Positions 314 through 22,893 of a DNA stretch of 35,909 bases are shown here, in pieces. Location: NCBI GenBank assembly GCA_021778335.1, contig JAJYCN010000015.1, positions 1 through 35,909 of the forward strand, read 5' to 3'. Made by a program: the position numbers and the translations under genes. The stretch is from Acidobacteriota bacterium (GTDB lineage Bacteria > Acidobacteriota > Terriglobia > Bryobacterales > Bryobacteraceae). The stretch's first letter is position 1; the number at the start of each line of letters is the position of its first letter. Below the pieces are notes generated by a model. That model was not told the DNA's origin. It made no database searches and saw only the letters and a program-made list of their open reading frames with translations.

Positions 314-1390
314 ATGAGTGGGCTATTGTCGCTCCGCGCGATATTCGTTTTTCTTTTGGCCATCACGGGGTACTGGCTGCACCCGTTCGGGTTGGGGCGC
401 TGGTACGGAGCGATGGTGGGCGCGGCGGTGGGCGCCGCTCTGATGTTTTTCGAAATGCAGGTGCGGCGCATTTCGCTGAAGCGTCTGATTGGCGCGACGG
501 CGGGTTCGATTGTGGGCATTTTGGCGGCTTATTTGATGTCGCTGGTGCTGGGTCATGCGGGCGCGGGGAGCGCGAACGTGGTTCCGTTTGTGGAGATCGC
601 GCTGCTGGCGGCGACGACGTATCTGGGGCTGGTGGTGGGGGCGAGCAAGGGCGACTCGTTGAATCTTTCGGCGCTGGGCGGGCTGTTCGGGTCGGAGCGG
701 GCGGGCGCGGCGTCGTTGAAGCTGCTCGATACGAGCGTGATCATCGACGGGCGGATCGCGGACATTGTCGAGAGCGGGTTTCTGGACGGGACGCTCGCGA
801 TACCGCAGTTTGTGCTGCGGGAGCTGCAGATGGTGGCCGATTCCTCCGACTCGATGAAGCGGAACCGCGGGCGGCGGGGCCTCGATGTGCTGCAGCGGAT
901 TCAGAAGCTGCCGGGGTTGAAGGTGGAGATTCTGGAGGATGATTTTCCGCAGGTGCGCGAGGTGGACCTGAAGCTGATCGAGCTGGCGAAGCTGCGGGAG
1001 TGCAAGATCGTCACCAACGATTTCAACTTGAACAAGGTGGCGCAGTTGCGGGGCGTCGAGGTGCTGAACATCAACGAACTCGCGAATGCGCTGAAGCCGG
1101 TGGTGCTGCCGGGCGAGACGATGCGGGTGTTCATATTGAAGGAAGGCAAGGAGTACAGCCAGGGGGTGGCGTACCTGGACGACGGCACGATGGTGGTGGT
1201 GGACAACGCGCGGAAGATGATTTCGCGGACGATCGACATCACGGTGACGAGCGTGCTGCAGACGACGGCGGGGAAGATGATTTTCGGGCGGTTCGACGAG
1301 CGGTTGCACGCCGTGTACGACAAGCAGCAGCAGGCGGACAGGGCCGAGCGGGCGGCGCGGGAAGGACCGGCGGGGGCTCAGGCGGGGTAG
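314..1390 (+). CDS. yacL: PIN/TRAM domain membrane protein, YacL-like
   Basis: N-terminal TM segments, then PIN motif LLDTSVIIDGRIADIVESGFLDG, conserved FVLRELQ.VADSSD..KRNRGRRGL, C-terminal TRAM-like region; located upstream of ispD-ispF as in other bacteria. Confidence 0.9.
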   Translation: MSGLLSLRAIFVFLLAITGYWLHPFGLGRWYGAMVGAAVGAALMFFEMQVRRISLKRLIGATAGSIVGILAAYLMSLVLGHAGAGSANVVPFVEIALLAATTYLGLVVGASKGDSLNLSALGGLFGSERAGAASLKLLDTSVIIDGRIADIVESGFLDGTLAIPQFVLRELQMVADSSDSMKRNRGRRGLDVLQRIQKLPGLKVEILEDDFPQVREVDLKLIELAKLRECKIVTNDFNLNKVAQLRGVEVLNINELANALKPVVLPGETMRVFILKEGKEYSQGVAYLDDGTMVVVDNARKMISRTIDITVTSVLQTTAGKMIFGRFDERLHAVYDKQQQADRAERAAREGPAGAQAG

Positions 1391-1455
1391 CGGGGAACTC
1401 AGCGCTTCGGGCGGGGCGCGGCGCGAGCGTGTTTCGTGCTGGTTGATCCTTAGTC

Positions 1456-1483
1456 TTGGCTAGAAACGGCGATAGGTTATAAT
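1456..1483 (+). promoter_or_regulatory. sigma70-like promoter for ATPase/DUF4276 cassette
   Basis: TTGGCT (1456-1461), 16 bp spacer, TATAAT (1478-1483), 24 nt before ATG at 1508, which has AGGA at 1494-1497. Confidence 0.6.
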
Positions 1484-1507
1484 TCGGGCGTCCAGGAAAA
1501 CGCGTAG

Positions 1508-2716
1508 ATGCAGCCCGGCATCAACAGCATAACCATCCAGAACCTTTTGTCCTTTGGCGAGGCGTTAACGATCGAGCTGCGTCCTCTCAATGTGCTCATC
1601 GGCCCAAATGGCTCGGGGAAATCCAACCTGATTGAGGTCCTCGGATTGTTACAGAACGCGCCCGGAGACCTTGCGACAGCCATTAACAACGGTGGGTCCA
1701 TCGACGATTGGCTTTGGAAGGGCGCTGCAAAGACTCCTACGGCCGCGATTCATGTTACGGTTCCCCGTCCGGCGGATTCGCGGGATGCGGGTGGTCAAGC
1801 GTTGCGTTACCGTCTTGCTTTCACGAAGGCTGGATACCGCTTCCAGATAGTAAGCGAGTTCGTCGAGAACGACGGACCCATACCTGATCAGGAAGGGCTG
1901 GACCGTGGGCTCGTTCCTCCAGATTTCTACTATGGGTACGTGAACGGGAATCCGATGTTCGTAAGTGGAGGGGAGAAAGTTTCTCTCCGGTTGGAGGCAA
2001 CCAATCCGCAGCTTTCGATCCTCGCTCAACGGAAGGATCCCGAGCATTACCCGGAAATGACGCATCTCGGCAACCTGTTTGCGAAAATCCGGCTATATCG
2101 CGACTGGGAATTCGGCGGGCTCGCCGATGTGCGCGAGCCTTGCGATGCCGGCCTCCCCAATGAGTACTTGGAGGAGGACGGGTCGAACCTCGGGGTCGTT
2201 CTGGACCGCCTTTTGTCCCGACCGGAGGTCAAGGGGCAAATCCTGGAATCCTTGCGCACGTTCTATGAGGGCGCCAGGGATCTGCGCACGAACGTTGAAG
2301 GCGGGAAGGTGCAGACGCGGCTCGAGGAGGCGGGTCTCCGGTCGACGATCCCACTCGTCCGGATGTCCAATGGCACCGTGCATTGGCTTGCTCTGCTGGC
2401 GATACTCCTGAATCCCGATCCGCCGCCTCTGGTCTGCATTGAGGAGCCGGAACTCGGCCTGCACCCGGACATGATCCGGGAGTTGGCCAAACTGCTGATT
2501 GATGCGTCGTCGCGGATGCAACTGGTCGTCACGACACATTCGGATCGTCTCATTGAAGAGCTTTCCGAGATGCCGGAAGCCGTAGTTGTTTGTGAAAAGC
2601 AGAACGGGAGTTCGATTCTGCGGCGTCTCAATAGGCATGAACTCTCGTCGTGGTTGGAGGAATACAGTCTCGGGGAGTTGTGGACCAAGGGGCAACTCGG
2701 GGGAACGCGCTGGTGA
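1508..2716 (+). CDS. AAA/ABC-type ATPase (RecF/OLD-like, AAA_21 style)
   Basis: Walker A GPNGSGKSN, Walker B PPLVCIEEPELGLHP, H-loop region VVTTHSDRLIEEL. Confidence 0.9.
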   Translation: MQPGINSITIQNLLSFGEALTIELRPLNVLIGPNGSGKSNLIEVLGLLQNAPGDLATAINNGGSIDDWLWKGAAKTPTAAIHVTVPRPADSRDAGGQALRYRLAFTKAGYRFQIVSEFVENDGPIPDQEGLDRGLVPPDFYYGYVNGNPMFVSGGEKVSLRLEATNPQLSILAQRKDPEHYPEMTHLGNLFAKIRLYRDWEFGGLADVREPCDAGLPNEYLEEDGSNLGVVLDRLLSRPEVKGQILESLRTFYEGARDLRTNVEGGKVQTRLEEAGLRSTIPLVRMSNGTVHWLALLAILLNPDPPPLVCIEEPELGLHPDMIRELAKLLIDASSRMQLVVTTHSDRLIEELSEMPEAVVVCEKQNGSSILRRLNRHELSSWLEEYSLGELWTKGQLGGTRW

Positions 2717-3300
2717 GTTTGCTGGTGTATGTCGAGGGCGGAGGTGACCGCCGCTCATACACGGCATGTAGAAAGGCCTTCGGCGCGTTCTTCGGGCGTG
2801 TGCTCGGTGACCGGCCGAAAGCTCGCATTGTTGCATGTGGGGCGCGCCACCAGGCTTACGAGGATTTCCGGCGGTCGCTGAAGGACGATCCCAAAATCTT
2901 CGCGGTTTTGTTGGTCGACTCCGAGAATCCCGTGATGGAGGGAGTGGACGCCGCTACGCATCTGCGTAAACAGGACGACTGGACGGATCTTCAGCCGGGC
3001 CAGAGCATTCATCTGATGGTCCAGTGCATGGAGTCCTGGTTTCTTGCGGACAAGAGGGCGCTCTCCACGTACTACGGGGACGGGTTCAGGGAGCAGACAT
3101 TGCCGGCGAATCCGCGTATTGAACAGATCCCAAAGGGAGATGTTCTGAGTGGCCTTAGAATCGCCACGCGTGGGACGCGAATTGGGAGCTACCACAAGAC
3201 CAGGCATGCGTTCGACATCCTCGAGCGGATTGACCCGGAGATGGTAAAGAAAGCATCCCCTTTCGCCGAGAGGCTTTTCCGCGCTCTGCTTGAAGGTTAG
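2713..3300 (+). CDS. DUF4276-like protein (TOPRIM-like), partner of the upstream ATPase
   Basis: GTG start overlapping upstream stop (GTGA, 2713-2716); LLVYVEGGGDRRSY and AVLLVDSENPV (TOPRIM-like acidic motifs), VQCMESWFLADK. Confidence 0.7.
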   Translation: MSLLVYVEGGGDRRSYTACRKAFGAFFGRVLGDRPKARIVACGARHQAYEDFRRSLKDDPKIFAVLLVDSENPVMEGVDAATHLRKQDDWTDLQPGQSIHLMVQCMESWFLADKRALSTYYGDGFREQTLPANPRIEQIPKGDVLSGLRIATRGTRIGSYHKTRHAFDILERIDPEMVKKASPFAERLFRALLEG

Positions 3301-3400
3301 TCTCTTCATTGGAACCTGGCGGTCAGACGATATTTCCGCCGCGGACGCGGGTGGGTGCGGGGGTGGCGCAATCCGGGTATGCTGGGTGTGAGTTGCCGAG

Positions 3401-4132
3401 ATGAGCCAGGTATCAGTTATTCTTCCGGCCGCGGGGCTTGGGACGCGGATGAGCAAGTCGCAGGCGGAGCGGATGGGGACGAGCCGCAAGCAGTTCATGC
3501 TGCTGGACGGGTCGCCGATTTTGATCCATACGATTCGCAAGTTTGTGGCGGCGCCGCCGGTGGCCAACCTAGTCGTCGCGCTGCGGGCCGATGACATCGA
3601 CTGGGCGTCGAAGCTGATTGCGGCGGAGAGGTTTCCGAAGCCGGTTCGGGTGGTGGAGGGGGGCGAATCGCGGCAGCAGTCGGTCGAGAACGCGCTGGCG
3701 GCGCTGGCGCTCGAAGGGGACGCGCTGGTGGCGGTGCACGACGCGGTGCGGCCGTTCATCGACATCGAAACGATCGAAAAAGTGGTGGCGCTGGCGGCGC
3801 AGACGGGCGCGGCGATTGTGGGCATCGTTCCGGTGGACACGGTGAAGCAGGTTCACCTGAACAAGATCCGGGCGACGATTCCGCGGGAAAAGCTGGTGAT
3901 GGCGCAGACGCCGCAGGTGTTCCGCTACGACCTGTTGATGGAGGCGTTCGAGCAGGCGCGGCAGGACAACTTCACGGGCACGGACGAGTCGAGCCTGGTG
4001 GAGAGGCTGGAGAAGGTGGACGTGAGCGTGGTGGCGGGGAGCGACCGCAACATCAAGATCACGCGGCCTTCGGATATGGACCTGGCGCGGCTGTTTCACG
4101 CCGAAGAACTGGCGCAGAGTCCGAGAGAATGA
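3401..4132 (+). CDS. ispD: 2-C-methyl-D-erythritol 4-phosphate cytidylyltransferase
   Basis: VILPAAGLGTRM...KQFMLLDGSPIL, VAVHDAVRPF, AQTPQVFRYDLL, TDESSLVE. Confidence 0.95.
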   Translation: MSQVSVILPAAGLGTRMSKSQAERMGTSRKQFMLLDGSPILIHTIRKFVAAPPVANLVVALRADDIDWASKLIAAERFPKPVRVVEGGESRQQSVENALAALALEGDALVAVHDAVRPFIDIETIEKVVALAAQTGAAIVGIVPVDTVKQVHLNKIRATIPREKLVMAQTPQVFRYDLLMEAFEQARQDNFTGTDESSLVERLEKVDVSVVAGSDRNIKITRPSDMDLARLFHAEELAQSPRE

Positions 4133-4614
4133 GCCCGGTCCGGATGGGTCTGGGCTGGGACGTGCATCGCATCGCGGCGGGGCGTCCTTTGATTCTGGGC
4201 GGGGTCACGGTGCCGAGCGAGTTCGGCTTCGAAGGGCACTCGGACGCGGATGTGCTGAGCCATGCGATCACGGACGCGATTCTGGGGGCGGCGGCGCTGG
4301 GCGACATCGGGATGCATTTTCCGGATACGGACGCGCGGTGGAAGGGCGCGGATTCGCTGGTGCTGCTGAGCGAGGCTTGCCGGATGGCGCGCGAGGCGGG
4401 CTTCGAAATTGTGAACGTAGACAGCACGGTGATACTGGAGCGGCCGAAGCTGAAGGATTTCCGGATGGCGATCCGGGAGAGGCTGGCGGGGACGCTGGGG
4501 ATCGCGGTGGAGCGGGTTTCGGTGAAGTTCAAGACGGCGGAGAAGGTGGGGCCGGTGGGGGAAGGGCGGTCGGCGGAGGCACAGGCGATCGCGACGCTCG
4601 AGCAGCGGGGCTGA
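4129..4614 (+). CDS. ispF: 2-C-methyl-D-erythritol 2,4-cyclodiphosphate synthase
   Basis: GLGWDVHRIAAGRPLILGGVTVPSEFGFEGHSDADVLSHAITDAILGAAALGDIGMHFPDTD; ATGA overlap with ispD. Confidence 0.95.
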   Translation: MSPVRMGLGWDVHRIAAGRPLILGGVTVPSEFGFEGHSDADVLSHAITDAILGAAALGDIGMHFPDTDARWKGADSLVLLSEACRMAREAGFEIVNVDSTVILERPKLKDFRMAIRERLAGTLGIAVERVSVKFKTAEKVGPVGEGRSAEAQAIATLEQRG

Positions 4615-4618
4615 GGCG

Positions 4619-5947
4619 ATGGAACGGCCGCCGGGTCCGCGTTCGCGTTCGCCGCTGGGGTTGCTGCCGGAGTTCCGGAAGGGTCCGAATCTGTTTTTCG
4701 AGCGCGTGGCGCGGGAGTACGGGGACGTGGTGTATTTCCGGCTGGGGGTGCAGCGAACTTACCTGGTGAGCGACCCGGAGTTGATCCGCGGAGTGCTGGT
4801 GACGGACCAGCGGCGGTTCGTGAAGAGCCACGCGCTGCACCGGCTGAAGATACTGTTGGGCGAGGGTCTGCTGACGAGCGACGGGGAGTTTCACCTGCGG
4901 CAGCGGCGGCTTTCGCAGCCGGGGTTTCATCGCGAGCGTCTGGCGGGGTATGCGGCGGCGATGGTGCGGCGGGCGGTGGCGGCGCGGGAGCGTTGGCGCG
5001 ACGGGGAGACGGTGGATCTGCATCGGGAGATGATGCGGCTGACGCTGGGGATTGTGGGCGAGACGCTGTTCAGCGCGGATGTCGAGGGCGAGGCGGAGGA
5101 GATCGGCGCGGCGCTGAACGATATTCTGGCGCAGTTTCACACGCTGCTGATTCCGGGGACGCAGTATCTGGGGTGGCTGCCGTTCGGGAGCGCGAAGGTT
5201 TTCCAGCGGGCGCTGGAGCGGCTGAACCGGACGGTGTACCGGATCATCGGCGAGCATCGGGCGAGCGGGGCGGACCAGGGGGATCTGCTGTCGATGCTGC
5301 TCGAGGCGGTGGACGAAGAGACGGGCGAGCGGATGAGCGACCGGCAGGTGCGGGACGAGGCGATGACGCTGATGCTGGCCGGGCATGAGACGACGGCGAA
5401 CGCGCTGACGTGGTCGTTTTATTTGTTGAGCCAGAACCCGGAGTGCGAGCGGAGGCTGCACGAGGAGGTGGACGGGCTGGGCGGGCGGGCGCCGGGGTTT
5501 GAGGACTTGCCGCGGCTGGGATATGCGGAGATGGTGCTGGCGGAGGCGATGCGGTTGTATCCGCCGGCGTGGAGCATTGGGCGGCTGAGTCCGGGGGAGT
5601 ACCGGTTGGGCGAGTGGACTGTGCCGGCGGGTTCGGTGATCGCGATGAGCCAGTGGGCGGTGCATCGGGACGCGCGGTGGTGGCCGGAGCCGGAGCGATT
5701 CGTGCCGGAGCGGTTTGCGGCGGAGGAGCGGGAGAAGCGGCCGAAGTTCGCGTACTTTCCGTTTGGGGGCGGGACGAGGCAGTGCATTGGGGAGCGTTTT
5801 GCGTGGATGGAGGGGACGCTGGTGCTGGCGGCGATTGCGCAGAAGTGGCGGACGCGGCTGGTGGATGGTCAGAAGGTGGAAACGGAGGCGCGGGTGACGC
5901 TGCGGCCGCGGTGGGGGATGGGGATGAAGATGGAGGAGAGGGAGTAA
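4619..5947 (+). CDS. cytochrome P450
   Basis: I-helix LAGHETTANAL, ExxR (EAMR), heme-binding FPFGGGTRQCIGERFAWME. Confidence 0.95.
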   Translation: MERPPGPRSRSPLGLLPEFRKGPNLFFERVAREYGDVVYFRLGVQRTYLVSDPELIRGVLVTDQRRFVKSHALHRLKILLGEGLLTSDGEFHLRQRRLSQPGFHRERLAGYAAAMVRRAVAARERWRDGETVDLHREMMRLTLGIVGETLFSADVEGEAEEIGAALNDILAQFHTLLIPGTQYLGWLPFGSAKVFQRALERLNRTVYRIIGEHRASGADQGDLLSMLLEAVDEETGERMSDRQVRDEAMTLMLAGHETTANALTWSFYLLSQNPECERRLHEEVDGLGGRAPGFEDLPRLGYAEMVLAEAMRLYPPAWSIGRLSPGEYRLGEWTVPAGSVIAMSQWAVHRDARWWPEPERFVPERFAAEEREKRPKFAYFPFGGGTRQCIGERFAWMEGTLVLAAIAQKWRTRLVDGQKVETEARVTLRPRWGMGMKMEERE

Positions 5948-5997
5948 GGAGCAGGAAGCAAGGAGTAAGAAGCCGGAAGCAAGAAGCAGGGAGCAAG
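5942..5997 (+). repeat. 21-bp imperfect purine-rich tandem repeat (about 2.7 units) spanning the P450 stop codon
   Basis: GAGTAAGGAGCAGGAAGCAAG / GAGTAAGAAGCCGGAAGCAAG / AAGCAGGGAGCAAG. Confidence 0.75.
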
Positions 5998-6078
5998 GAG
6001 GGGGAAACGCAGAGCGCGGCGAGAGGGTACGAGGGGAGCGTTGATTTAAGCGCGGCGGGCAGTACGCGCGGGGGCCTA

Positions 6079-8241
6079 GTGTGGTTGGCGATATGCGGAC
6101 TCCTGCTGGCGCCGGCGATGGTTTGGGGCCAGAGCGCGGAAGCAGGCACGGCTCGGGGGATTCCTGTTGGGCTTGACGCGTACCGGGAATGGGGGCGGTG
6201 GCCGGAACAAAGAATCGGGATGCGGGCCTATATGCGGAGCACTTACGACAGGGCAGGAGGAAATGAGGGGGCGGATGCGTCGCATTTTCTTTATCAAGTT
6301 GGCGACAGGTTCAGCGTTACGCTCGATGTTGAAGGGGCGGGAATGCTTGTCTTCAGCCGGTTCAACCACTGGCACGGCAGCCCATGGCATTTTGTCGTGG
6401 ATGGCGTTGACAACATCGTGCAGGAAACGAGTACGGCGGACCCGATTCATCCAAATCCATCGTCCGTGTTCTTGCCGCAGGCGCCATTCCCTCCGCCGCT
6501 CAACTACACGTGGGCGACAACGAAGGGGGCGGATCTGATCTGGTCTCCGATCGCGTTCGAACGCAGCCTTCAGCTTGCCTATACGCGAACGCATTATGGG
6601 ACCGGGTATTACATCTATGACCAATTTGTACCGGGCACACCGCTTTCCCGCCCGCTTGAGAGTTGGAATGAGAGGACTGTGCCCGGCGGCGATGTACTGG
6701 ACTTGATATCGCGGGCCGGTAGCGACATTGCTCCGAAGACCGGCGCCACAGAGATGAAGGGGACCGTGGATGTTCCCGCGTCCGGCGCCGCGAGGGCGGT
6801 GACTCTAAAGCGTGGCTCCGTGATCCGCGTCCTGACCTTCTCGATTGACAGGAGACAGTCGGCCGCATTTCAGAATGTTCGCCTTCGCGTCACGTGGGAC
6901 GGGCGGGAGCATGCATCCGTCGATGCGCCGATCAGCCTGTTCTATGGCGCCGGCACGCTGTATAACAGGACAAATCGCGAGTATCTCGTGAAGGCGTTCC
7001 CGGTCAATATACGGTTTACGGCGACTCGCATCTATCTTGCGTGCTATTTCCCGATGCCATTCTTCCGGTCGGCACGGATCGAATTGGCCGGCGCGGGGCA
7101 GAAGGTTTCCGGCGTCGAATGGTACGTCCGTACACTGCCTTTAGGCGAGCGGCCGAACCGGCTCTCGTACTTCCACGCAACTTATCGCGACACGCCGGCG
7201 CCAGTGCCGGGAAAAGATCTGACCTTACTCGATACACGCGGCGAGGAAGGCGCGGAGGGGTGGTCGGGGAGCCTGGTTGGGACCTCCTTCATTTTTTCCC
7301 ATGCGGCAAACTTAACGACGCTTGAAGGAGATCCCCGCTTCTTCTTCGACGACAGCCGTACGCCGCAGGCGCAGGGAACCGGAACGGAAGAGTGGGCGGG
7401 CGGAGGCGATTACTGGGGCGGCGAGAATATGACGTTACCTTTTGCCGGTCATCCGGTTGGGGCGCGCGGCGCAAAGTCGGCGGTGAATGACGAAGATAAG
7501 ATTGAGTCCGCTTACCGGTTTCTGTTAGGCGACCTCATGCCATTCGGGAAGAATGCGGTTGTCGGTCTGGAGCATGGCGGCAGAGACGATTCGACCGAGC
7601 ATTACGAAACGATTGCTTATTGGTATGGGCTGCCGGCTCCTTCTTTGATCGAAACCGATGAACTCAAGGTAGGCGATGTTGGGTCTGAAAGAGCGCATGA
7701 TTATCGTGCAACGGAAGGTTCGGCATCATACACGATTGTGTCCCGTTATGAGGTGGGCGTTGACACGATGAACGGCAAGGCCATCTATCCGCCCGAGAGC
7801 GACAGCGGGCGAGTTACTAAGGTTGCTTCGGAATTTACTTTGAAGTTACGGCGCGACAACCTGGGAGTGCTGCTTCGGCGCAAGCTGGACTATTCTTACC
7901 CGGACCAGAGAGCCGAAGTGTATATATCCGATACGCGAAAGCCGCTGTGGAAGTTAGCGGGTGTATGGTACCTGGCCGGATCGAATATGTGTTTGTATTC
8001 GAATCCCAAGGAGGAACTGGGCGCCGCGGCGCCGGTTGTCGAGACGTCGAATCGGCGATTTCGGGACGACGAGTTTCTGATCTCGCGTGAGCTGACCGGG
8101 AACAAACGGTCGATTCGCGTGCGGATAAAGGTGATGCCGGTGAATCGGCCTTTTCTTTCCGGATCGAGTGTGCATGCCCGACTTTGGAGCGAAATCAAAT
8201 ACACGGCGTATTGTTTTGTCAGGCCGCGCTTTCGAAGGTAG
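6079..8241 (+). CDS. secreted DUF2961 family protein
   Basis: Signal-like LVWLAICGLLLAPAMVWGQS; internal DPRFFFDDSRTPQAQGTGTEEWAGGGDYWGGENMTLPFAGHP typical of DUF2961; start (GTG 6079) uncertain, ORF is open upstream. Confidence 0.75.
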   Translation: MWLAICGLLLAPAMVWGQSAEAGTARGIPVGLDAYREWGRWPEQRIGMRAYMRSTYDRAGGNEGADASHFLYQVGDRFSVTLDVEGAGMLVFSRFNHWHGSPWHFVVDGVDNIVQETSTADPIHPNPSSVFLPQAPFPPPLNYTWATTKGADLIWSPIAFERSLQLAYTRTHYGTGYYIYDQFVPGTPLSRPLESWNERTVPGGDVLDLISRAGSDIAPKTGATEMKGTVDVPASGAARAVTLKRGSVIRVLTFSIDRRQSAAFQNVRLRVTWDGREHASVDAPISLFYGAGTLYNRTNREYLVKAFPVNIRFTATRIYLACYFPMPFFRSARIELAGAGQKVSGVEWYVRTLPLGERPNRLSYFHATYRDTPAPVPGKDLTLLDTRGEEGAEGWSGSLVGTSFIFSHAANLTTLEGDPRFFFDDSRTPQAQGTGTEEWAGGGDYWGGENMTLPFAGHPVGARGAKSAVNDEDKIESAYRFLLGDLMPFGKNAVVGLEHGGRDDSTEHYETIAYWYGLPAPSLIETDELKVGDVGSERAHDYRATEGSASYTIVSRYEVGVDTMNGKAIYPPESDSGRVTKVASEFTLKLRRDNLGVLLRRKLDYSYPDQRAEVYISDTRKPLWKLAGVWYLAGSNMCLYSNPKEELGAAAPVVETSNRRFRDDEFLISRELTGNKRSIRVRIKVMPVNRPFLSGSSVHARLWSEIKYTAYCFVRPRFRR

Positions 8242-8535
8242 GGTGACGGGGTGGATTTCAACAGGGAGGGTGGAATGAGGACGCCTCCGGTGTTACTCGT
8301 TTCTTGTCGAGCCTGCGCCTCAGAGAGCCTGACGGGTTTAGCAGATTGCCTATGCCGCGGGATGCGCCCAGAGAGCGGGCGCGGTGCTCTGCAAGCGCTA
8401 GCCCGGTTGGATGAGGATGCGCGTATAGTCGCGGAGGCAGCGGTGAGGTCTTCTCGGGAGAGGCGTTCGGCGGTATGCTTGGACGAGGGTATGAGCAGGC
8501 GCCGGGAGGCGACGAAGCGAATTGGGACGCACACG

Positions 8536-8781
8536 ATGAGCGCAGCGAAGCCGTTCGAAGAGATCATTGATTTCATCGCGGCGGGAACGACGCCGGAGGC
8601 CGTACTCGCATTTCGTCCCTCCGATGCCGTTCAGCGGCGCGTGGCGGAACTGGTCGAGCGGTCGAAGGACGGGAGCATTTCGGCGGAGGAGCAGTCGGAG
8701 CTCGAAGACACGTTGCAGCTCGATCACATCATGATCATGGCAAAGGCGCGAGCTCGCCAACACACCCACCTTGGGAAATGA
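8536..8781 (+). CDS. small (81 aa) conserved-type protein upstream of HNH endonuclease
   Basis: MSAAKPFEEIIDFIAAGTTPEAVLAFRPSDAVQRRVAELVERSKDGSISAEEQSELEDTLQLDHIMIMAKARARQH; overlaps HNH ORF. Confidence 0.7.
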   Translation: MSAAKPFEEIIDFIAAGTTPEAVLAFRPSDAVQRRVAELVERSKDGSISAEEQSELEDTLQLDHIMIMAKARARQHTHLGK

Positions 8782-9184
8782 CATCCGCGAGCCGCTGCGC
8801 CTTCTCGTTGCCGAGCGGGCCGACCGGCGGTGTGAGTATGGTCCGCTTCATGAAGACGATTCTTATTCGCCGCACCAGGTGGACCATGTCATCAGCCGCA
8901 AACAGGGTGGGCGATCAGAGGCTGACAACCTGGCTTTTGCCTGTCTTCGGTGCAACGCGTGGAAGGGCAGCGATGCCGGCTCCCTCGATCCTGAAAGCGG
9001 TGCTTTTGTAGCTCTGTTCGACCCTCGGCGGCAACACTGGGAGGATCATTTCATGCTGCGCGGAGGACTCATCGAGCCACTAACTCCAGAGGGCCGGGTA
9101 ACGGCGCGTTTACTGAGGCTCAACCTGGACAAGCGCGTAATTGAGCGGCGGTTGCTGATTGCAGCCGGGCGATACGGGCGGTAG
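8771..9184 (+). CDS. HNH endonuclease family protein
   Basis: HQVDHVISRKQGGRSEADNLAFACLRCNAWKGSD; TTG start overlapping the small upstream gene by 11 bp. Confidence 0.85.
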   Translation: MGNDIREPLRLLVAERADRRCEYGPLHEDDSYSPHQVDHVISRKQGGRSEADNLAFACLRCNAWKGSDAGSLDPESGAFVALFDPRRQHWEDHFMLRGGLIEPLTPEGRVTARLLRLNLDKRVIERRLLIAAGRYGR

Positions 9185-9247
9185 ATCACGGCGGGTTGTG
9201 AAACCGCGCCCCTCCGCGTGATACCCATGGAGGGAAGGGACCAATCA

Positions 9248-10159
9248 ATGAAGCTGGGATTTGTGAGTGCGATTTTGGCGGAGGCGACGCTGGAAGAGGT
9301 GATGCGGTTCGCCGCGGCGGAGGGGTTCGATTGCGTTGAGGCGATGTGCTGGCCGGCGGGGAAGGCGGAGCGGCGGTATGCGGGGGTGACGCATGTCGAT
9401 GTGACGGCGCTCGATGAGGCGGGGGTGGAACGGATCCGGGCGCTGGTGGAGGAGACGGGGGTGGGGATCAGCGGGCTGGGGTATTATCCGAATCCGCTGG
9501 CGCCGGACGAGGCGGAGGCCGCGGTGTATCAGGCGCATATCCGGAAAGTGATCGAGGCGGCGCGGAAGCTGGGGGTGGGCGTGATGAACACGTTCATCGG
9601 GCGGGACTGGAAGAAGAGCGTGGAGGAGAACTGGCCGCGGTTTGAGAAAGTGTGGCCGGGGATCATCGCGTTCGCCGAGGACAACGGCGTGAAGGTGGGG
9701 ATTGAGAACTGCCCGATGGCGTTCACGGCGGACGAGTGGCCGGGCGGGAAGAACCTCGCCACCACGCCGGCGATATGGCGGCGGATGTTCGAGCGGATTC
9801 CGAGTAAGAATTTCGGGCTGAACTACGATCCTTCGCACATGGTGTGGCAGCAGATGGATTACCTGGCGCCGATGCGGGAGTTTGCTTCGCGGCTGGTGCA
9901 TGTACATGCGAAGGACGCGCGGATCGACCGGGCGCGGTTGAACCAGGTGGGGATCATGGCGCATCCGCTGGAGTTTCACACGCCGAAACTGCCGGGGCTG
10001 GGAGAGATCGACTGGGGCAAGTTCTGCTCGGTGCTGATGGATACGGGGTACGACGGTCCGTTGTGCATTGAGGTGGAAGACCGGGCGTATGAGAAAACCC
10101 GGGAGCTGCGGGAGAAGTCGCTGCGGCAGAGCGGGCGGTATTTGCGGAATTTTCTGTGA
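9248..10159 (+). CDS. sugar phosphate isomerase/epimerase (xylose isomerase-like TIM barrel)
   Basis: [35 protein letters not shown]...GIENCPM...[13 protein letters not shown]...[19 protein letters not shown] upstream. Confidence 0.88.
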
Positions 10160-10174
10160 GAGGGGAGAGACGGG

Positions 10175-10963
10175 ATGATTGAGAACTGGCGCGGGAAGTG
10201 GGCGCTGGTGACGGGGGCGAGCGCGGGGATCGGGGTGGAACTGGCGACGGCGCTGGCGGCGGGCGGGACGAACCTGGTGCTGACGGCGCGGCGGCGGGAG
10301 AGGCTGGACGAGTTGGCGACGCGGCTGCGGTCGTTGAACGGGGTGAGCGTCGAGATTGTGACGGCGGACCTGGCGAAGGCGGATGCGGCGGAGCGGATTC
10401 ATTCGTTCACGATGGACCGGCGGCTGGAGATTGAGCTGCTGATCAACAACGCCGGGTTCGGCGTGTACGGGGAGTTTCACCGGAACGCGCCGCAGCGGGA
10501 GCTGGATATGATCCGGGTGAACTGCCTGGCGGTGGTGCACCTGACGCAGATGTTTTTGCCGGCGATGATTGAGCGGCGGAGCGGGTCGATTCTGATTTTG
10601 TCGTCGACGGCGGCGTATCAGGCGGTGCCGTACATTTCGACGTATGCGGCGACGAAGGCGTTCGACTTACTGTTCGCGGAGGGGTTGGCGCATGAGGCCG
10701 GGCGGTATGGGGTGAAGGTGTGCGCGCTGTGTCCGGGGCAGACGGAGAGCGAGTTTCACGAAGTGGCGGGCGCGCCGGGGCAGGGGAAGGGCGCTTCGGC
10801 GCGGGAGGTGGCGCTGCTGGGTTTGCGGGCGTTGGCCGAAGGGAAAGCTTCGGTGATTCACGGGTTCCGCAACAACGCGTTTGTGGAGTTGCAGCGGCTG
10901 GCGCCGCGGCGGTTTGTGACGGACTCGGCCGGAAAGATGTTCCGGCCGAAGTCCGCGAAGTAG
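10175..10963 (+). CDS. SDR family NAD(P)-dependent oxidoreductase
   Basis: ALVTGASAGIGVELA, INNAGFGVYG, SSTAAYQAVPYISTYAATKAF (YxxxK). Confidence 0.92.
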   Translation: MIENWRGKWALVTGASAGIGVELATALAAGGTNLVLTARRRERLDELATRLRSLNGVSVEIVTADLAKADAAERIHSFTMDRRLEIELLINNAGFGVYGEFHRNAPQRELDMIRVNCLAVVHLTQMFLPAMIERRSGSILILSSTAAYQAVPYISTYAATKAFDLLFAEGLAHEAGRYGVKVCALCPGQTESEFHEVAGAPGQGKGASAREVALLGLRALAEGKASVIHGFRNNAFVELQRLAPRRFVTDSAGKMFRPKSAK

Positions 10964-10978
10964 GAGACTGCTTTCGCG

Positions 10979-11830
10979 TCAGGCCTGGGCCCGGGAGACG
11001 CGCATCGAGGCCGGGACGGCGCCAATCTGCTGCATCATGGCGAGGCGGTCCCATGCGCTGTGTTGTTCAACGACCTTGCCGTTGGCGATTCGCAGCGTAT
11101 AGACGATCGTGAAGCGGACAGATTTGCCGCTCGCATTGTAGTCACCCAACTTACCGGTGTGAGTGCCAGTTACTGTGCAGCGTAGGGCTACGCGGTCGCC
11201 TTCGCACATCACATCGTCGACCTGAATGTGGGTGTCCGGGAAGGCAGAGATGTAAGTGTGATAATCGTCCCGCAAGCCCCGCGGGCCGCGCTGGGTTCCG
11301 TCCGGCGTGTATCTGACGAATTCTTCGGTGATGAAGTGGGAGATCATCTCGGGCTTCTTGCGGTTCCAGATTTCCTCGAGGAAACGACGGGCGAGGGCTT
11401 TGTTGGCTTCGGTCTGCGTCATGCCGAGCCCGAGCTGATCGAGGACCGACTGGAGGTTCCAATCGGCCCACAGTTCGAGGATTTTGCCGTTTTTCAGGCG
11501 ATGGATGGTTGTGCCCGAGACGATGGCCGAACGGTTTGTGGGATCGGCTCCGAGGAACTTTCCGCGGTGCGTGCCGCGGGCGGTCCAGTGGATGACGACT
11601 TCGTCGCGCTCGGTGATGACGTCATCGACGGAAAAGGCGAGGTCCGGGAACGCGTCCCGGCACATTTGAATGTGGCGTTTGTAGCTGTCGGCGCCGGGGG
11701 AGAGAGAGGGAAAGGCTGCGTCGTGGAGGCGGCAGGTTGATGAAACGGTTTCGTCGACTGCTTTGAGGAGACCTTGATTCCAGGCTTCTTCGAGCAGGCG
11801 CCGGCAGGCTTTTTTGTTTTCCTCGGACAT
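10979..11830 (-). CDS. SnoaL-like / NTF2-fold ester cyclase with two tandem domains
   Basis: Two homologous halves: ...FPDLAFSVDDVITERDEVVIHWTARGTHRGKFLG... and ...FPDTHIQVDDVMCEGDRVALRCTVTGTHTGKLGD... Confidence 0.85.
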   Translation of the reverse strand: MSEENKKACRRLLEEAWNQGLLKAVDETVSSTCRLHDAAFPSLSPGADSYKRHIQMCRDAFPDLAFSVDDVITERDEVVIHWTARGTHRGKFLGADPTNRSAIVSGTTIHRLKNGKILELWADWNLQSVLDQLGLGMTQTEANKALARRFLEEIWNRKKPEMISHFITEEFVRYTPDGTQRGPRGLRDDYHTYISAFPDTHIQVDDVMCEGDRVALRCTVTGTHTGKLGDYNASGKSVRFTIVYTLRIANGKVVEQHSAWDRLAMMQQIGAVPASMRVSRAQA

Positions 11831-12006
11831 GGTGCTTTACTCCTTTTTTGACCATGGACCGGGGTGCCGGACTGACCAGGATAATCCTGCCACTGCCACT
11901 CCCGGCCTGGAGGTATTTTACACCCGAGGGTCCGGAGTGAAGCCTGTTATTTTTGGAACGGGGATGTGCTGTAAAGACGCGGCGGAAGGATGATAGATAA
12001 GCAAGC

Positions 12007-12993
12007 ATGCGACTGATGGTTGTGTTGGGTCTGGCGGCCGGCTCGGTGTTTGGGCAGGCGGTGGTGGCGCCGGGGGCGCGGAGCGAGATGGATGCGCACA
12101 ATTGCTATCCGTACGACGGGCGCTGGGAGGACCGGGTGGACCGGGCGCTGAGCGCGGGGACGCCGGTGGCGATTGAGCAGGATTTGGCGTGGTACACGGA
12201 TGCGAAGACGGGGCGGTCGCGATCGGTGGTGACGCACGGGGGCAAGCATGTGACGGGAGACGAGCCTTCGATGCGGGAGTATTTTTTCGAGAAGATCCGG
12301 CCGTTGATGGAGCGGGCGTTGCAGGAGGGCGACCACGGCGACTGGCCGCTGGTGACGCTGAACCTGGACTTCAAGACGGACGAGGCGGCGCATCATGCGG
12401 CGGTGTGGAAGCTGCTGCAGGAGTACGAGCCGTGGTTGTGCACGGCGGAGCGGATGAAGGATGAAAGCAAGGTTGCGCCGATGAAGGCGGGTCCGCTGCT
12501 GGTGCTGACGGGGGAAGCGGATTCGCAGGCGCGGGATTTCGAACAGATTGTGCCGGTGGGCGGGCGGCTGCTGTTGTTTGGGGCGGTGAAGACGGCGCGG
12601 CATTTGAACGCGGCGATGGCGCCGGAGCAGATTGTGGAAGGCGGGGCGACGAATTACCGGCGGTGGTGGAACAATCCGTGGGGCGTGGTGGAGGCGGGCG
12701 GGCAGCGGGCGGCGGGTGAGTGGACGGAGGCGAGCGAGGCGCGGCTTCGGACGCTGGTGAAGTACGCGCATGCGCATGGGCTGTACATCCGGTTCTATAC
12801 GCTTGACGGGGCGCCTCAGACGGAGATGGAGGCGAACGGGTGGTTTATGGAGTATGACTTCGGGTCGCTCGATGCGGCGAAGGCGCGGTGGTTGGCGGCG
12901 GAGCGGGAGGGTGTGGATTATATTGCGACGGATGAGTATGAGGAGTTGGGGAAGTTTTTGCGGGGGAGCGGGGTGAGGGCGGGGGTAAGGTAG
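12007..12993 (+). CDS. secreted phosphodiesterase-like protein (GDPD/PI-PLC TIM-barrel type)
   Basis: Signal-like N-terminus, AHNCYPYDGRWEDRVDRALSAGTPVAIEQDLAWYTD, C-terminal YIATDEYEELGKFL. Confidence 0.65.
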   Translation: MRLMVVLGLAAGSVFGQAVVAPGARSEMDAHNCYPYDGRWEDRVDRALSAGTPVAIEQDLAWYTDAKTGRSRSVVTHGGKHVTGDEPSMREYFFEKIRPLMERALQEGDHGDWPLVTLNLDFKTDEAAHHAAVWKLLQEYEPWLCTAERMKDESKVAPMKAGPLLVLTGEADSQARDFEQIVPVGGRLLLFGAVKTARHLNAAMAPEQIVEGGATNYRRWWNNPWGVVEAGGQRAAGEWTEASEARLRTLVKYAHAHGLYIRFYTLDGAPQTEMEANGWFMEYDFGSLDAAKARWLAAEREGVDYIATDEYEELGKFLRGSGVRAGVR

Positions 12994-13018
12994 GGAGCGT
13001 CCGGTCTGCGGCGGAGGG

Positions 13019-13450
13019 CTATTTCTGGGGCCGGGCGGACGGGTAAATGCGGAAGCGCTTGCGGCCTTCGATGCGGTAGGTGGTGAAGTCAGCGTGGTCT
13101 ACGGTGAAGACGGTGGTGAGGCGTTCGCGGCGGGCGAGGTAGACGAGGGTTGAGTCGGCGAAATCCATGGGGCGGTCCGAATAGCGGGACATGAGGGCTT
13201 GGACTTCGGGGAGTTCGGAGTCTTCGAGCGGCAGGAGACGGAGTGCGCCGGAGCGGACGAATTTCCAGGCGGTCTCTATTTCGTGACGGCTATCGCCCAC
13301 CAGGTGGAAGAGCTCGGTGAGCACGGCCTCGGAGGTGAGGAGGGGCAAGCGGAGTTGGTGGAAGGCTTCTACGCAGACATCATGCCAGCGGTCCGTCCTG
13401 TCGAGCAGGGCGAGGATAGCGCCGGTATCGACGAGGGTGTCAGCGGCCAT
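13019..13450 (-). CDS. PIN-domain toxin, VapC-like
   Basis: TLVDTGAILALLDRTDRWH..., LTSEAVLTELFHLVG, MDFADSTLVYLARR..TVFTVDHADFTTYR; overlaps antitoxin ORF. Confidence 0.88.
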   Translation of the reverse strand: MAADTLVDTGAILALLDRTDRWHDVCVEAFHQLRLPLLTSEAVLTELFHLVGDSRHEIETAWKFVRSGALRLLPLEDSELPEVQALMSRYSDRPMDFADSTLVYLARRERLTTVFTVDHADFTTYRIEGRKRFRIYPSARPQK

Positions 13451-13721
13451 GACGTTTGCGCAGGCGCTGGCGGAGGGTCTGGGAGGCGGTCTCGGCGCGC
13501 CTTCGATTGCCGCTTGCGAGTGTACCGAGGAGGCGTGAGGCGGCCTCTTTTAGACGGAGTTGTTCCTCGTCGCCGTCGTGTGCGGCGCTGCCTTTGTCGA
13601 GCCACTCGCGGGCGGCGAGGTCGAGGGCGGCGGACATGGAGATTTTCCGGCGGCGGGCTTCGTGTTCCAAGCTTGTTTTGAGCGCGGGGGAGAGGCGCCA
13701 GGTGTACACTTCAGTCTTCAT
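13440..13721 (-). CDS. putative antitoxin (VapB/RHH-like)
   Basis: MKTEVYTWRLSPALKTSLEHEARRRKISMSAALDLAAREWL; 11-bp overlap with downstream PIN gene. Confidence 0.75.
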   Translation of the reverse strand: MKTEVYTWRLSPALKTSLEHEARRRKISMSAALDLAAREWLDKGSAAHDGDEEQLRLKEAASRLLGTLASGNRRRAETASQTLRQRLRKRHGR

Positions 13722-13740
13722 TGCATTACATTGTAGTGCA
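13722..13740. promoter_or_regulatory. palindromic candidate operator at TA promoter
   Basis: TGCATTACA-T-TGTAGTGCA (one mismatch), directly abutting the antitoxin start codon; contains TACAAT (-10-like) on the minus strand. Confidence 0.6.
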
Positions 13741-13810
13741 TTTTGGGCGGAAGACTCTCACTGGCGGCCGCGGCTCGGTTTCAGGTTCGGCGGGTCATGG
13801 CGGGTGGGGG

Positions 13811-16411
13811 CTAGGTTACTCGGATGAGGGCGGAGGCGGGGGTAAGGCCGGGGGATTGGGCCTGGAGGGTGGCGGGGCCGGGGAGGAGTTTGGGGCGGAG
13901 GATGGCGAGGGCGCGGCCGTGGTAGGTGGTGAGGCGGGGGCCGCGGAAGCTGGCGACGTCTTTCGGGTTGGCGGCGCCGGAGGCGGCGAGTTCCGCCGGG
14001 CCGCGGAGGGTGAAGGCTACGGGGACGGCGGCGTCGGGGACGAGGCGGCCGGCGGAGTCGTGGACTTCGAGGGTGACGAAAGAAAGATCGTTGCGGGAGC
14101 GGAGGATGGTTGGGCGGTCCGCGAGTAAGTGGAGTCTCGCGGGGGCGCCGGCGGTAGTTATAGTAAGTTCGGCTATCTTATCGTTGTTAGCCGAGAGGGC
14201 GACGGCTTTGAGCTCGCCGGGCGAGTAAGTAAGTTCGAATTCGGCTTTGTACTCGGTTTCGGCCGATACAGGCTTGGTTCCGAATTCTTTTCCGTTGAGC
14301 ATTAGTTGGACGCGGGCGGCGGTGGAGTAGACGCGGACGTTGACCTTCTTGCCCTCGGCGCCGGGCCAGGTCCAACTGGAGAGTTCGTCGGACCAACCCC
14401 AGGGGCTGATGAGTTCTTTGTGGCCTTCGGGGACGGGGCGCTGGACGGCGACTTCGAGTTTGCTGAGTCCCCAGAGGACGCGGCGGTAGAGCCACTGGGG
14501 CTTGGACTGGCCGATTAAGTCGATATCGCCGCAGTAGCAGTTGAACCAGGGGAATGGAAGGAAGATGGTGGAGCCGCCGAAGAAATCGGCCATGCTGCCG
14601 GTGGGTTGTTTGGCGGATGTTTGCGGGGAGGGCCCGGCGGGTTTGGGCGGAGGGCCGAAGGTGGCTGAGTGCGGGTTGTCGAGTTGGGCGTTGCCGATGG
14701 AGGATTCGCCGAGGTGGTCCATGCCGGTCCAGACGAAGTCGCCGATGACGTAAGGATGTTCCTGGACCGGAGTCCAGCTTTGGAAGGCGGCGCGGGGGAA
14801 GGACTCGGTGCCGAGCATGATGCGCTGGGGAAGGCGTTCGTGGTCGGGCGCGTAGGCATTGGGGAGATAGTTATAGCCGGCGACGTCGAGGGATTCGAAG
14901 GCGGGGTCGAGGGCGGTTCCGGGCCGGAAGCCGTTGATGGCGGCGGTGATGGGGCGGGTGGAGTCGAAAGAGCGGAGGTGGGTGCGAAGCTCGCGGGCGA
15001 GTTCGACGCCGCGGGGTTGGGCGCGTTCGGGGATTTCGTTGCCGATGCTCCAGAGGATGACGCAAGGGTGATTGCGATCGCGGCGGACCATGGCTTCGAT
15101 GTCGCGCTGCCACCATTCGTCGAAGTAGAGGTGATAGTCCCGCGGGTTTTTGGGGCGTTCCCATTGGTCGAAAGCTTCTTCGAGGACGAGCATGCCGAGG
15201 CGGTCGCAGGCGTCGAGGAACGCCGGAGAGGGCGGGTTGTGGGCGGTGCGAATGGCGTTGAAGCCGTGGGCCTTCATGAGCTCGACGCGGCGCTGGTCGG
15301 CGCGGTCGATGGCGCAGGCGCCGAGGAGGCCGTTGTCGTGGTGCATGCAGCCGCCGCGGATTTTGTGGGGTTCGCCGTTGATGCGGAGGCCGTGTTCGGC
15401 GTCGATTTCGACTTTGCGGATGCCGAAGGGGACGGTGATGGAGTCGGCTGGGGAGTTGAGTTCGACTTCGGCGCGGTAGAGGTGGGGCGCGGCGGGCGAC
15501 CAGAGTTGCGGGTTGGCGATGGTGAGATCGAGTTCGTGCTCGATGTTCGCGTTGGCGGGGAGGGAGTGGGTGGAGGCGGCGGTGGCGGCGGTGCGGCCGT
15601 CGGGGTCGAGGAGGCGGATGCGGACGGAGGCGCCGTGCGGGTGGGTGGCGCGGTTTTCGATGTGGAAGGCGACTTTGACGGCGGCGTGGTCCGCGGAGAC
15701 TTCGGGGGTGGTGACGAAGACGGTCCAGATGGGCAGGCGGAGGGGGGCGGTGGAGTTGAGCCAGACGTGGCGGTAGATGCCGGAGCCGGAGTACCAGCGG
15801 CTGTTGCGGCCTTCGTTGCGGATGCGGACGGCGAGGACGTTGGGGGCGTTGCGGCGGAGGTGGGAGGTGAGGTCGTAGGAGAAGGGCGTGTAGCCGTAGG
15901 GGTGGTTGCCGAGGTGGTTGCCGTTGAGCCAGACGTCGGAGTTCATGTAGACGCCGTCGAACACGATTTCGAGTTGGGCGTCGATGGGGAGGACGGAGGC
16001 GGAGAAGTGTTTGCGGTACCAGGCTGTGCCGCCGACGAGCCAGCCGGTGTCGCGGCCGCCGGCGCTCAATTGGGTGTCGAAGGGGCCGATGCGGGTGGGG
16101 AGGATGGCGGCGCCCCAGACTTCGTCCTGGCCGTTGGAGTCGGCGCGGCGCGGGGGCAGGTCTTCGACGGAGAAGTCGTGCGGGAGGTCGAGGAGGCGCC
16201 AAGAGGAGTCGTCGAATTCGGGGTTTTCGGCGCCTGGGGCGCCGGCGCGGAGGAAGCGCCAGTTGTCGTCGAAGGGCTGGTTGCGCTTGAGGTGGAGGGC
16301 GGCGGCGGAGGGGGCGGGTGTTTTGGTTTGCTGGGCGTAGAGCGGGGCACCGGCAAGGGAGGCGAGAGTTTTGAGGGCTTGGCGGCGGCCGAGGGCGGGG
16401 TCCGATGGCAT
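13811..16411 (-). CDS. glycoside hydrolase family 2 (beta-galactosidase-like), secreted
   Basis: GH2 motifs DNWRFLRAG, WYRKHF, IRTAHNPPSPAFLDACDRLGMLVLEEAFDQW, RDRNHPCVILWSIGNEIPE; twin-Arg-like N-terminus GRRQALKTLASLAGAPLYA. Confidence 0.92.
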   Translation of the reverse strand: MPSDPALGRRQALKTLASLAGAPLYAQQTKTPAPSAAALHLKRNQPFDDNWRFLRAGAPGAENPEFDDSSWRLLDLPHDFSVEDLPPRRADSNGQDEVWGAAILPTRIGPFDTQLSAGGRDTGWLVGGTAWYRKHFSASVLPIDAQLEIVFDGVYMNSDVWLNGNHLGNHPYGYTPFSYDLTSHLRRNAPNVLAVRIRNEGRNSRWYSGSGIYRHVWLNSTAPLRLPIWTVFVTTPEVSADHAAVKVAFHIENRATHPHGASVRIRLLDPDGRTAATAASTHSLPANANIEHELDLTIANPQLWSPAAPHLYRAEVELNSPADSITVPFGIRKVEIDAEHGLRINGEPHKIRGGCMHHDNGLLGACAIDRADQRRVELMKAHGFNAIRTAHNPPSPAFLDACDRLGMLVLEEAFDQWERPKNPRDYHLYFDEWWQRDIEAMVRRDRNHPCVILWSIGNEIPERAQPRGVELARELRTHLRSFDSTRPITAAINGFRPGTALDPAFESLDVAGYNYLPNAYAPDHERLPQRIMLGTESFPRAAFQSWTPVQEHPYVIGDFVWTGMDHLGESSIGNAQLDNPHSATFGPPPKPAGPSPQTSAKQPTGSMADFFGGSTIFLPFPWFNCYCGDIDLIGQSKPQWLYRRVLWGLSKLEVAVQRPVPEGHKELISPWGWSDELSSWTWPGAEGKKVNVRVYSTAARVQLMLNGKEFGTKPVSAETEYKAEFELTYSPGELKAVALSANNDKIAELTITTAGAPARLHLLADRPTILRSRNDLSFVTLEVHDSAGRLVPDAAVPVAFTLRGPAELAASGAANPKDVASFRGPRLTTYHGRALAILRPKLLPGPATLQAQSPGLTPASALIRVT

Positions 16412-16489
16412 GGGCGCTCCTTGGGGGGGTGGAGGGATTAGCGTAGCAGAAGCGGGTGGTGGGTGAGTGGCTTCGTTGCCGCGCGGAGG

Positions 16490-16828
16490 TCAGAAGCTGG
16501 CCATATGGCAGATGGCGCGGAGCTTTTTGGGCGCGAGGCCGTGGAGGTCGTCTTCGGTGAGATGTCCGTCGCGGAGCAGAGAAGCGAGGACGACGGGCAG
16601 GACGGAGTAGCGGAACTCGAAGGTGCGGTCGAACCGGTGGCGGCGTTCGGTGAGCCAGCGCTCCAGTTCCCAGAGTCCGGCGGCTTGGGTGGTACGCGCA
16701 GCGCGCTCCCGGGTTTGGCGGATGACAGCATCGAGTTCGCGGCGGCGTGCGAGGTAGAAGGCCCGGCGGGCGTCTACCGCGTCGTGAGGGTAAGCGGTGG
16801 GGGTCGTGATTGTTTTGTGCCAGGTCAA
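16490..16828 (-). CDS. hypothetical protein
   Basis: Coherent sequence HKTITTPTAYPHDAVDARRAFYLARRRELDAVIRQTRERAARTTQAAGLWELERWLTERRHRFDRTFEFRYSVLPVVLASLLRDGHLTEDDLHGLAPKKLRAICHMASF; TTG start at 16828 inferred. Confidence 0.5.
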   Translation of the reverse strand: MTWHKTITTPTAYPHDAVDARRAFYLARRRELDAVIRQTRERAARTTQAAGLWELERWLTERRHRFDRTFEFRYSVLPVVLASLLRDGHLTEDDLHGLAPKKLRAICHMASF

Positions 16829-16925
16829 TCGATGGTAGGGAAGAGGAGCGGGCGGGCGGGAGGGCCGCTCCGTTTGGCCGCGGAACGGCGCTAGGACCGA
16901 GAGGGTGAAAGGCGGTGAGCGCCGT

Positions 16926-20984: not shown

Positions 20985-20990
20985 ACACGC

Positions 20991-22289: not shown

Positions 22290-22893
22290 ACTAAGGCGGC
22301 GCGGCGCGACACGCGAGCCGCTGGCCAGAGTTCTAATCGTATGCGAGGGACAGGTTACGGAGCCGCATTACTTCAATCAGCTTCGGCACCTGGAGCGGTG
22401 CCCGGTGGCGCTGAAGTTGCACGGCGGCGCTGTTCCGAAGACTCTCGTGGAAATGGCGGTTAAGATGAAGAAAGAATCGGGGGCTCGGGCCGGACGCAAG
22501 CGCGATCAGAACCTTCGATACGATCACGTCTGGTGCGTATTCGACGTGGATGCACATCCAAGTATCGCGGATGCGCTGCAACAGGCCCGGGATAACGGCA
22601 TCTGCACGGCTGTTTCAAATCCGTGCTTCGAGCTGTGGGCGCTGTTGCATTTCCAGGATCAGACGAAGTCCGTCACCAGGCAGGTAGTTCAGTCGCTGTG
22701 CAGGAAGCACATGCCAGGATATGCCAAGGAGCTGCCATGCGAGGAACTGATAGCTAAGTGCGAGGACGCAGTGGCTCGGTCCACGGCGTTGGTGAAGTGG
22801 CACAGCGATCGAGGTACGCCCGGCGGTAATCCGTCGACGACGGTGCATGAACTCGTTCGACTAATTCGAATGCAGAGGGCAGCGTGGAGGTGA
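22273..22893 (+). CDS. RloB-like protein (AbiLii-like)
   Basis: VLIVCEGQVTEPHYFNQL, DHVWCVFDVDAHP, SNPCFELWALLHF; GTG start with GGAGGAGG upstream (ORF open to ATG 22219). Confidence 0.88.
   Translation: MRRFGRLRRRGATREPLARVLIVCEGQVTEPHYFNQLRHLERCPVALKLHGGAVPKTLVEMAVKMKKESGARAGRKRDQNLRYDHVWCVFDVDAHPSIADALQQARDNGICTAVSNPCFELWALLHFQDQTKSVTRQVVQSLCRKHMPGYAKELPCEELIAKCEDAVARSTALVKWHSDRGTPGGNPSTTVHELVRLIRMQRAAWR

Follow-up and report, generated by a model that had tools for sequence, protein, structure and literature searches.

A stand-alone copy of the candidate defence pair HEC-01 at a variable yacL–ispD junction in an Acidobacteriota bacterium

The gene pair between yacL and ispD

The window, which is the whole stretch of DNA analysed here, comprises 35,909 nucleotides of an Acidobacteriota genome. 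As shown in Table 1, the gap between yacL and ispD is filled, according to the ORF calls, by two co-directional overlapping reading frames, gene A followed by gene B. The ORFs and the Pfam matches of the flanks bear out the initial annotation, which had placed a two-gene cassette between yacL and ispD/ispF, and the GTGA coupling that it had read for the pair is found as a stop/start overlap. The codon usage, judged by eye to be less GC-extreme than in the flanking genes, proved to be so when GC3 was calculated (0.69 versus 0.86–0.87), with values of 0.687 for A and 0.697 for B against 0.869 for yacL, 0.864 for ispD, 0.863 for ispF and 0.873 for a P450 gene. Relative to the nearest homologue, L082, in which the ATPase is 73–74% identical, dN/dS is about 0.08 for A and about 0.14 for B, where dS is near saturation; both genes appear to be under purifying selection, which is counted in favour of the explanation preferred below.

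The initial annotation had assigned the cassette its own promoter. The TTGGCT-N16-TATAAT site is present ahead of A, matches at 10 of 12 positions and is the sole sigma-70-like site in the stretch. However, shuffled sequences give 0.6 ± 0.8 such sites, so that the promoter alone is not above chance and carries little weight, and the site is considered only suggestive.

Table 1. Coordinates of the features discussed. Positions are those of the window unless a locus is named.
Feature	Position	Strand	Basis or remark
yacL (PIN-TRAM), left flank	314-1390	+	Pfam PIN/TRAM; 3' end is the insertion boundary
Left junction	1391-1455		homology to G001/G003 extends only a few nucleotides beyond the yacL stop codon, to 1394-1395; blastn and direct comparison
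Sigma-70-like promoter site TTGGCT-N16-TATAAT, 5' of A	1456-1483	+	
Gene A (HEC-01A), OLD/SMC-type ABC ATPase, 402 aa	1508-2716	+	AAA_21 2e-33
Walker A GPNGSGKS (G32-S39)	1601-1624	+	G32, N34, G37, K38 and S39 invariant in 53 homologues
Walker B / D-loop LVCIEEPELGLHPD	2429-2470	+	E313, P314, G317, H319 and P320 invariant
C-terminal tail of A LGELWTKGQLGGTRW	2669-2713	+	HEC-01A hallmark
Gene B (HEC-01B), DUF4276, putative TOPRIM/RloB-like nuclease, 195 aa	2713-3300	+	PF14103 7e-18
Start codon of B, GTG	2713		
GTGA stop/start overlap of A and B	2713-2716	+	
E8-G9, putative TOPRIM glutamate after strand 1	2734-2739	+	at least 90% conserved, 62 homologues
D69-S70-E71, putative TOPRIM DxD/E after strand 3	2917-2925	+	D69 invariant, S70/E71 at least 90% conserved, 62 homologues
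E107-x-W109-xxx-D113, aligned with the RloB NPCFExW motif	3031-3051	+	invariant in 62 homologues; register from hhalign
Right junction	3301-3350		homology to sister species restarts at 3350-3352, upstream of ispD; blastn and direct comparison
ispD, right flank	3401-4132	+	Pfam IspD 1.4e-54
ispF	4129-4614		Pfam
PDC-M03A/B (L072)	494-1408, 1369-2151		
A of the L078 pair	6182-7339	-	HEC-01A 1.5e-161
A of the L079 pair	929-2407	-	HEC-01A 2.6e-191

The two proteins were compared with PADLOC-DB 2.0.0, the source of the HEC-01 models, and the best of all models was taken for each. The best match of A is HEC-01A (PDLC04177, E 3.1e-151), in which residues 1-402 align to positions 1-393 of 393, and that of B is HEC-01B (PDLC04201, E 1.9e-66), over residues 2-192. 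The HECs are reportedly Hma-embedded candidates, said to have been presented in a preprint by Payne et al. in 2024. Embedding was the route by which these candidates were found; it is not required by the protein models. According to a 2026 study on archaeal immunity (PMC12988326), several HECs including HEC-06 showed antiviral activity. No mention of DUF4276, no paper on HEC-01 together with PADLOC and no description of the working mechanism of HEC-01 were found in the literature searched. The initial annotation had recognised no characterised system for this specific pair; PADLOC, however, already lists it as HEC-01. The profile matches indicate that the pair is a copy of the HEC-01 family, which is already catalogued and little studied.

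The copy stands alone, outside any large defence island. Elsewhere in the window, at 20985-22893 on the plus strand, a second pair of ATPase and nuclease genes is found, in which AbiLi (1.4e-93) overlaps AbiLii/RloB (2.5e-30; PF13707 3e-41); the GC3 of these genes is low too (0.70 and 0.68). A lone AAA_21-type ATPase gene, weakly AbiLi/AriA-like and with no evident nuclease partner, adjoins this AbiL pair at 23180-24283 on the minus strand, and the three genes may constitute a small defence patch.

Junction contents in relatives and distribution of the family

In 25 relatives, the matches to yacL and ispD lie 18–320 bp apart on one contig, with no cassette between them. The closest sister species, G001 and G003, in which YacL is 96% identical and the DNA upstream of ispD 99–100% identical, also lack it at this junction, and B has no match anywhere in their genomes. 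That the cassette is inserted, as the initial annotation stated, is shown by this absence from the sister species and 25 other relatives. The opposite picture, for example a cassette kept at this locus in all relatives with vertical phylogeny, was not found.

As shown by the comparison of the three genomes, the junction is occupied by different DNA in each sister species. In G001, it contains about 280 bp of other DNA (L073 5928-6207), a remnant that includes a short open reading frame; a resemblance of this remnant to a nucleotidyltransferase, seen by eye, was rejected because it has no Pfam match. In G003, an insert of about 8.2 kb (L072 119-8496) lies between yacL and a partial copy of the yacL 3' end, which is 57 bp long and 93% identical in this draft assembly. 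The insert carries genes for a HipA-like protein and its HIRAN-like partner, which correspond to the candidate pair PDC-M03 (PADLOC 1.9e-82 and 2.2e-76), and additionally for a LamG protein, a large Ig-like/InlB-type repeat protein and a LuxR regulator. No direct repeat like the 57-bp repeat of G003 was seen by eye around the cassette of the window, and the 57-bp stretch is present in full just once in G000. Thus, among three genomes of one genus, all of them draft assemblies, three sister species have three junction contents, i.e., HEC-01, the PDC-M03 insert and the remnant, two of which are candidate defence pairs. These alignments and the lower GC3 indicate that this soil bacterium acquired the cassette recently, at a variable site downstream of yacL.

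The location between yacL and ispD might be taken to suggest an accessory role connected with yacL or the isp genes, that is, with RNA metabolism or isoprenoid precursor supply. However, yacL and ispD occur without the cassette in the 25 relatives described above, and the ORFs neighbouring L082 are unlike yacL and ispD in size and direction. Such a role, which is disfavoured by this comparison of genomes, is scarcely credible.

When GTDB genomes were scanned with the B family, 70 loci in many phyla were obtained, and IMG/VR contributed one more. A adjoins B on the upstream side in 67 of these 71 loci. In the 50 homologous loci where both gene boundaries were called, an NTGA overlap is present in 35, of which 28 have GTGA, and the coupling is therefore a trait of the family. 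The phyla are mixed in the ATPase tree, where several phylum groups remain intact (21 label changes, with a minimum of 13 and a shuffled mean of 33.4). DUF4276 is present in 24 of 199 genomes of the phylum, and a tblastn search of a phage collection with B gave no match. Judged from the tree and these counts, the distribution is that of a mobile accessory system.

The distribution also bears on a cellular system of the OLD type outside defence, as in the case of archaeal Cran1, in which A would serve DNA/RNA maintenance and B would be its nuclease. According to one report, a new class of OLD-family ATPases acts in cell-cycle progression and not in defence (PMC12796447). However, the patchy presence in the phylum, the absence from the sister species, the mixed phyla in the tree and a GC3 unlike that of core genes make such a cellular role highly improbable for this pair.

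Two additional, distant HEC-01-type pairs, L078 and L079, lie on other contigs of the source genome (Table 1), so that, together with the pair in the window, one genome harbours three HEC-01 subfamilies. In G025, a HEC-01B homologue (L007) is interrupted by two in-frame TGA codons or by a frameshift; this copy is likely decaying.

The ATPase and its nuclease-like partner

The product of A is an AAA_21/AAA_15 ATPase according to Pfam, and it also matches the retron Eco8 OLD protein and AriA by sequence. Its structural model has a pLDDT of 92.7, and the head fold matches those of SMC, Rad50, PtuA and OLD with E-values of 1e-12 to 6e-15. The Walker A, Walker B, signature region and H-loop are all intact. 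The C-terminal tail carries the motif LGxLWxxGxxGG, which is found in 51 of 53 HEC-01A homologues, and may be the contact with B. The tail was also considered as a motif common to AbiLi, where the AbiLi protein of the window has a similar spacing, but this was rejected because the motif is not general among the partners of RloB or of distant DUF4276 proteins.

TOPRIM domains have a glutamate after strand 1 and a DxD/E motif after strand 3. In the AlphaFold model of B (pLDDT 96.1, pTM 0.91), a strand at residues 3-7, a helix, a strand at 38-41, a helix and a strand at 63-69 follow one another in β-α-β-α-β order, E8 lying at the end of strand 1 and D69-E71 at that of strand 3, as in TOPRIM domains, and the C-terminal part is long and all-helical. 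Across 62 homologues, L67, D69, M102, E107, W109, D113 and E137 are invariant. The acidic motifs EG..D and VDSE, which the initial annotation had pointed out in B, are conserved in the residues E8-G9 and D69-S70-E71; the final D of EGGGD, however, lacks such conservation, and GGGD is missing in several homologues.

A wide DUF4276 profile aligned to RloB with an E-value of 2.3e-5 and to the OLD TOPRIM domain with 2.9e-5, which are single-pair E-values, against 0.17–0.36 for the controls ispD, yacL and ispF. In these alignments, E8, D69/E71 and E107-W109 are in register with both the OLD TOPRIM domain and RloB. The narrow B-family profile aligned to the wide profile with an E-value of 3e-30, and its direct hhalign comparison with RloB and OLD was not significant, where the yacL control scored higher. 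In the Foldseek search against viral models, the top match of the B model was RloB-like (probability 0.94, E 0.03, TM about 0.45). The search against the PDB gave no TOPRIM protein and nothing below an E-value of 0.16, all matches being implausible, and the B profile had no match among PDB sequences.

The strand order, the residues and the RloB-like fold match speak for the expected TOPRIM fold of B, but the PDB comparison does not. The profile and fold links to RloB and the OLD TOPRIM domain are weak, though independent. B is likely, though not proven, to be linked to TOPRIM/RloB on the basis of these profiles and the model, and we infer a TOPRIM fold with moderate support. Alternatively, the pair could act in HEC-01-type defence with B as another Rossmann-like enzyme, e.g., a nucleotide hydrolase or transferase. 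The outcome of the PDB search would be compatible with such an enzyme, as would the DxE in place of DxD and the extended helical C-terminal part. However, the common register with the OLD TOPRIM and RloB profiles and the RloB-like top fold match point away from it, and we regard it as unlikely.

Proposed function and comparison with known systems

TOPRIM-linked OLD-ABC pairs have been described as backup effectors within BREX operons in a 2026 survey (PMC12839542). In likeness to these, HEC-01 homologues are found inside BREX operons at five loci, where they adjoin or separate BrxC, PglX and PglZ. L092 has the pair between BrxC and PglX, L130 has it between PglX and PglZ-BrxL, and in L124 and L138 it immediately follows BrxC. 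In L081, the gene order is BrxC - HEC-01A - HEC-01B - PglXI - HEC-02A - HEC-02B - BrxHI - PglZ - BrxA. The L081 contig is labelled viral in IMG/VR, and BREX core genes flank the embedded HEC-01 and HEC-02 at 1793-17171. Other genes adjoining the homologues match PsyrT, DarG, type IV and type II restriction enzymes and type I specificity proteins, as counted per family. In contrast to the BREX loci, PglZ has no match in the source genome, the assembly of which is about 93% complete; this genome would accordingly have no BREX, and the copy here probably acts without it.

The OLD/SMC-type A, the TOPRIM-like order of B, the match to HEC-01 and the BREX-embedded homologues are all in line with the defence logic of an ATPase with a TOPRIM partner that had been put forward for this locus. 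The earlier reading is largely right, with its novelty corrected, as the pair is an already catalogued candidate.

The overlapping two-gene operon, its recent gain and the description of PARIS AriA in the PDB as "AriA antitoxin" would also suit an addiction or toxin-antitoxin module of a mobile element, in which B is the toxin and A the antitoxin, and which persists by killing the cells that lose it, with no selected role against phages. However, the homologues recur inside BREX operons between core genes and directly touch other defence genes, the pair lies at a chromosomal junction without an integrase, and B has no tblastn match in 72,556 plasmids. A toxin-antitoxin module is thus considered distinctly unlikely.

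We consider it fairly probable that the pair is a stand-alone HEC-01 copy in which an OLD/SMC-type ATPase sensor holds a TOPRIM-like nuclease that is released on infection, in a manner similar to PARIS and AbiL. On the model of PARIS, A would probably be the sensor and scaffold, which would assemble and keep B inactive in a physical complex. A would then detect a product of infection as the trigger and, by means of ATP, set B free or activate it. B would probably be a small nuclease of the RloB/OLD type, TOPRIM-like and Mg-dependent, whose acidic site is formed by E8, D69 and E71. Once freed, it may cut nucleic acid as its substrate, be it DNA or host RNA, for instance tRNA, and phage growth would stop with an abortive outcome.

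The variable yacL–ispD junction is the most interesting part of the finding. Small defence modules appear to be gained and lost there, between two housekeeping genes, in a poorly surveyed phylum. A more far-reaching reading, which we offer as a tentative and rather doubtful possibility, is that small defence modules are repeatedly exchanged at the yacL 3' end in this clade, that the 57-bp copy in G003 is the footprint of a site-directed insertion, and that HEC-01B represents a DUF4276 branch of the RloB-like TOPRIM nucleases with a substrate of its own. The pair is a compact, natural stand-alone HEC-01 in which the acidic residues are conserved and a link to RloB is likely, and it makes the mechanism directly testable.

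OLD class 1 proteins, Gabija GajA and the retron Eco8 effector share with the pair the principle of an ABC ATPase head combined with TOPRIM. Here, however, the ATPase and B are two separate proteins on separate ORFs, with yacL, ispD and ispF as neighbours, and a fused TOPRIM domain, a GajB helicase and a retron are absent. AbiL (AbiLi/AbiLii; RloB) is similar in that an ATPase gene overlaps that of a small RloB/TOPRIM-like protein, and the motif register of B is similar as well; B, in contrast, fails the RloB/AbiLii models in Pfam and PADLOC, and a true AbiL pair is present in the same window. In PARIS, AriA is the ATPase sensor and AriB a TOPRIM tRNase (PMC12409363). Its separate genes for an OLD-type ATPase and a TOPRIM-like nuclease lie in one operon, as do A and the putative nuclease gene B here; AriB, however, belongs to DUF4435, for which B has no match in Pfam or PADLOC, whereas B belongs to DUF4276 and the best match of A is HEC-01A and not AriA. 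With HEC-01, the pair shares the gene order and a match over the full or nearly full length of both proteins, and it differs in standing alone between yacL and ispD instead of being embedded in another system.
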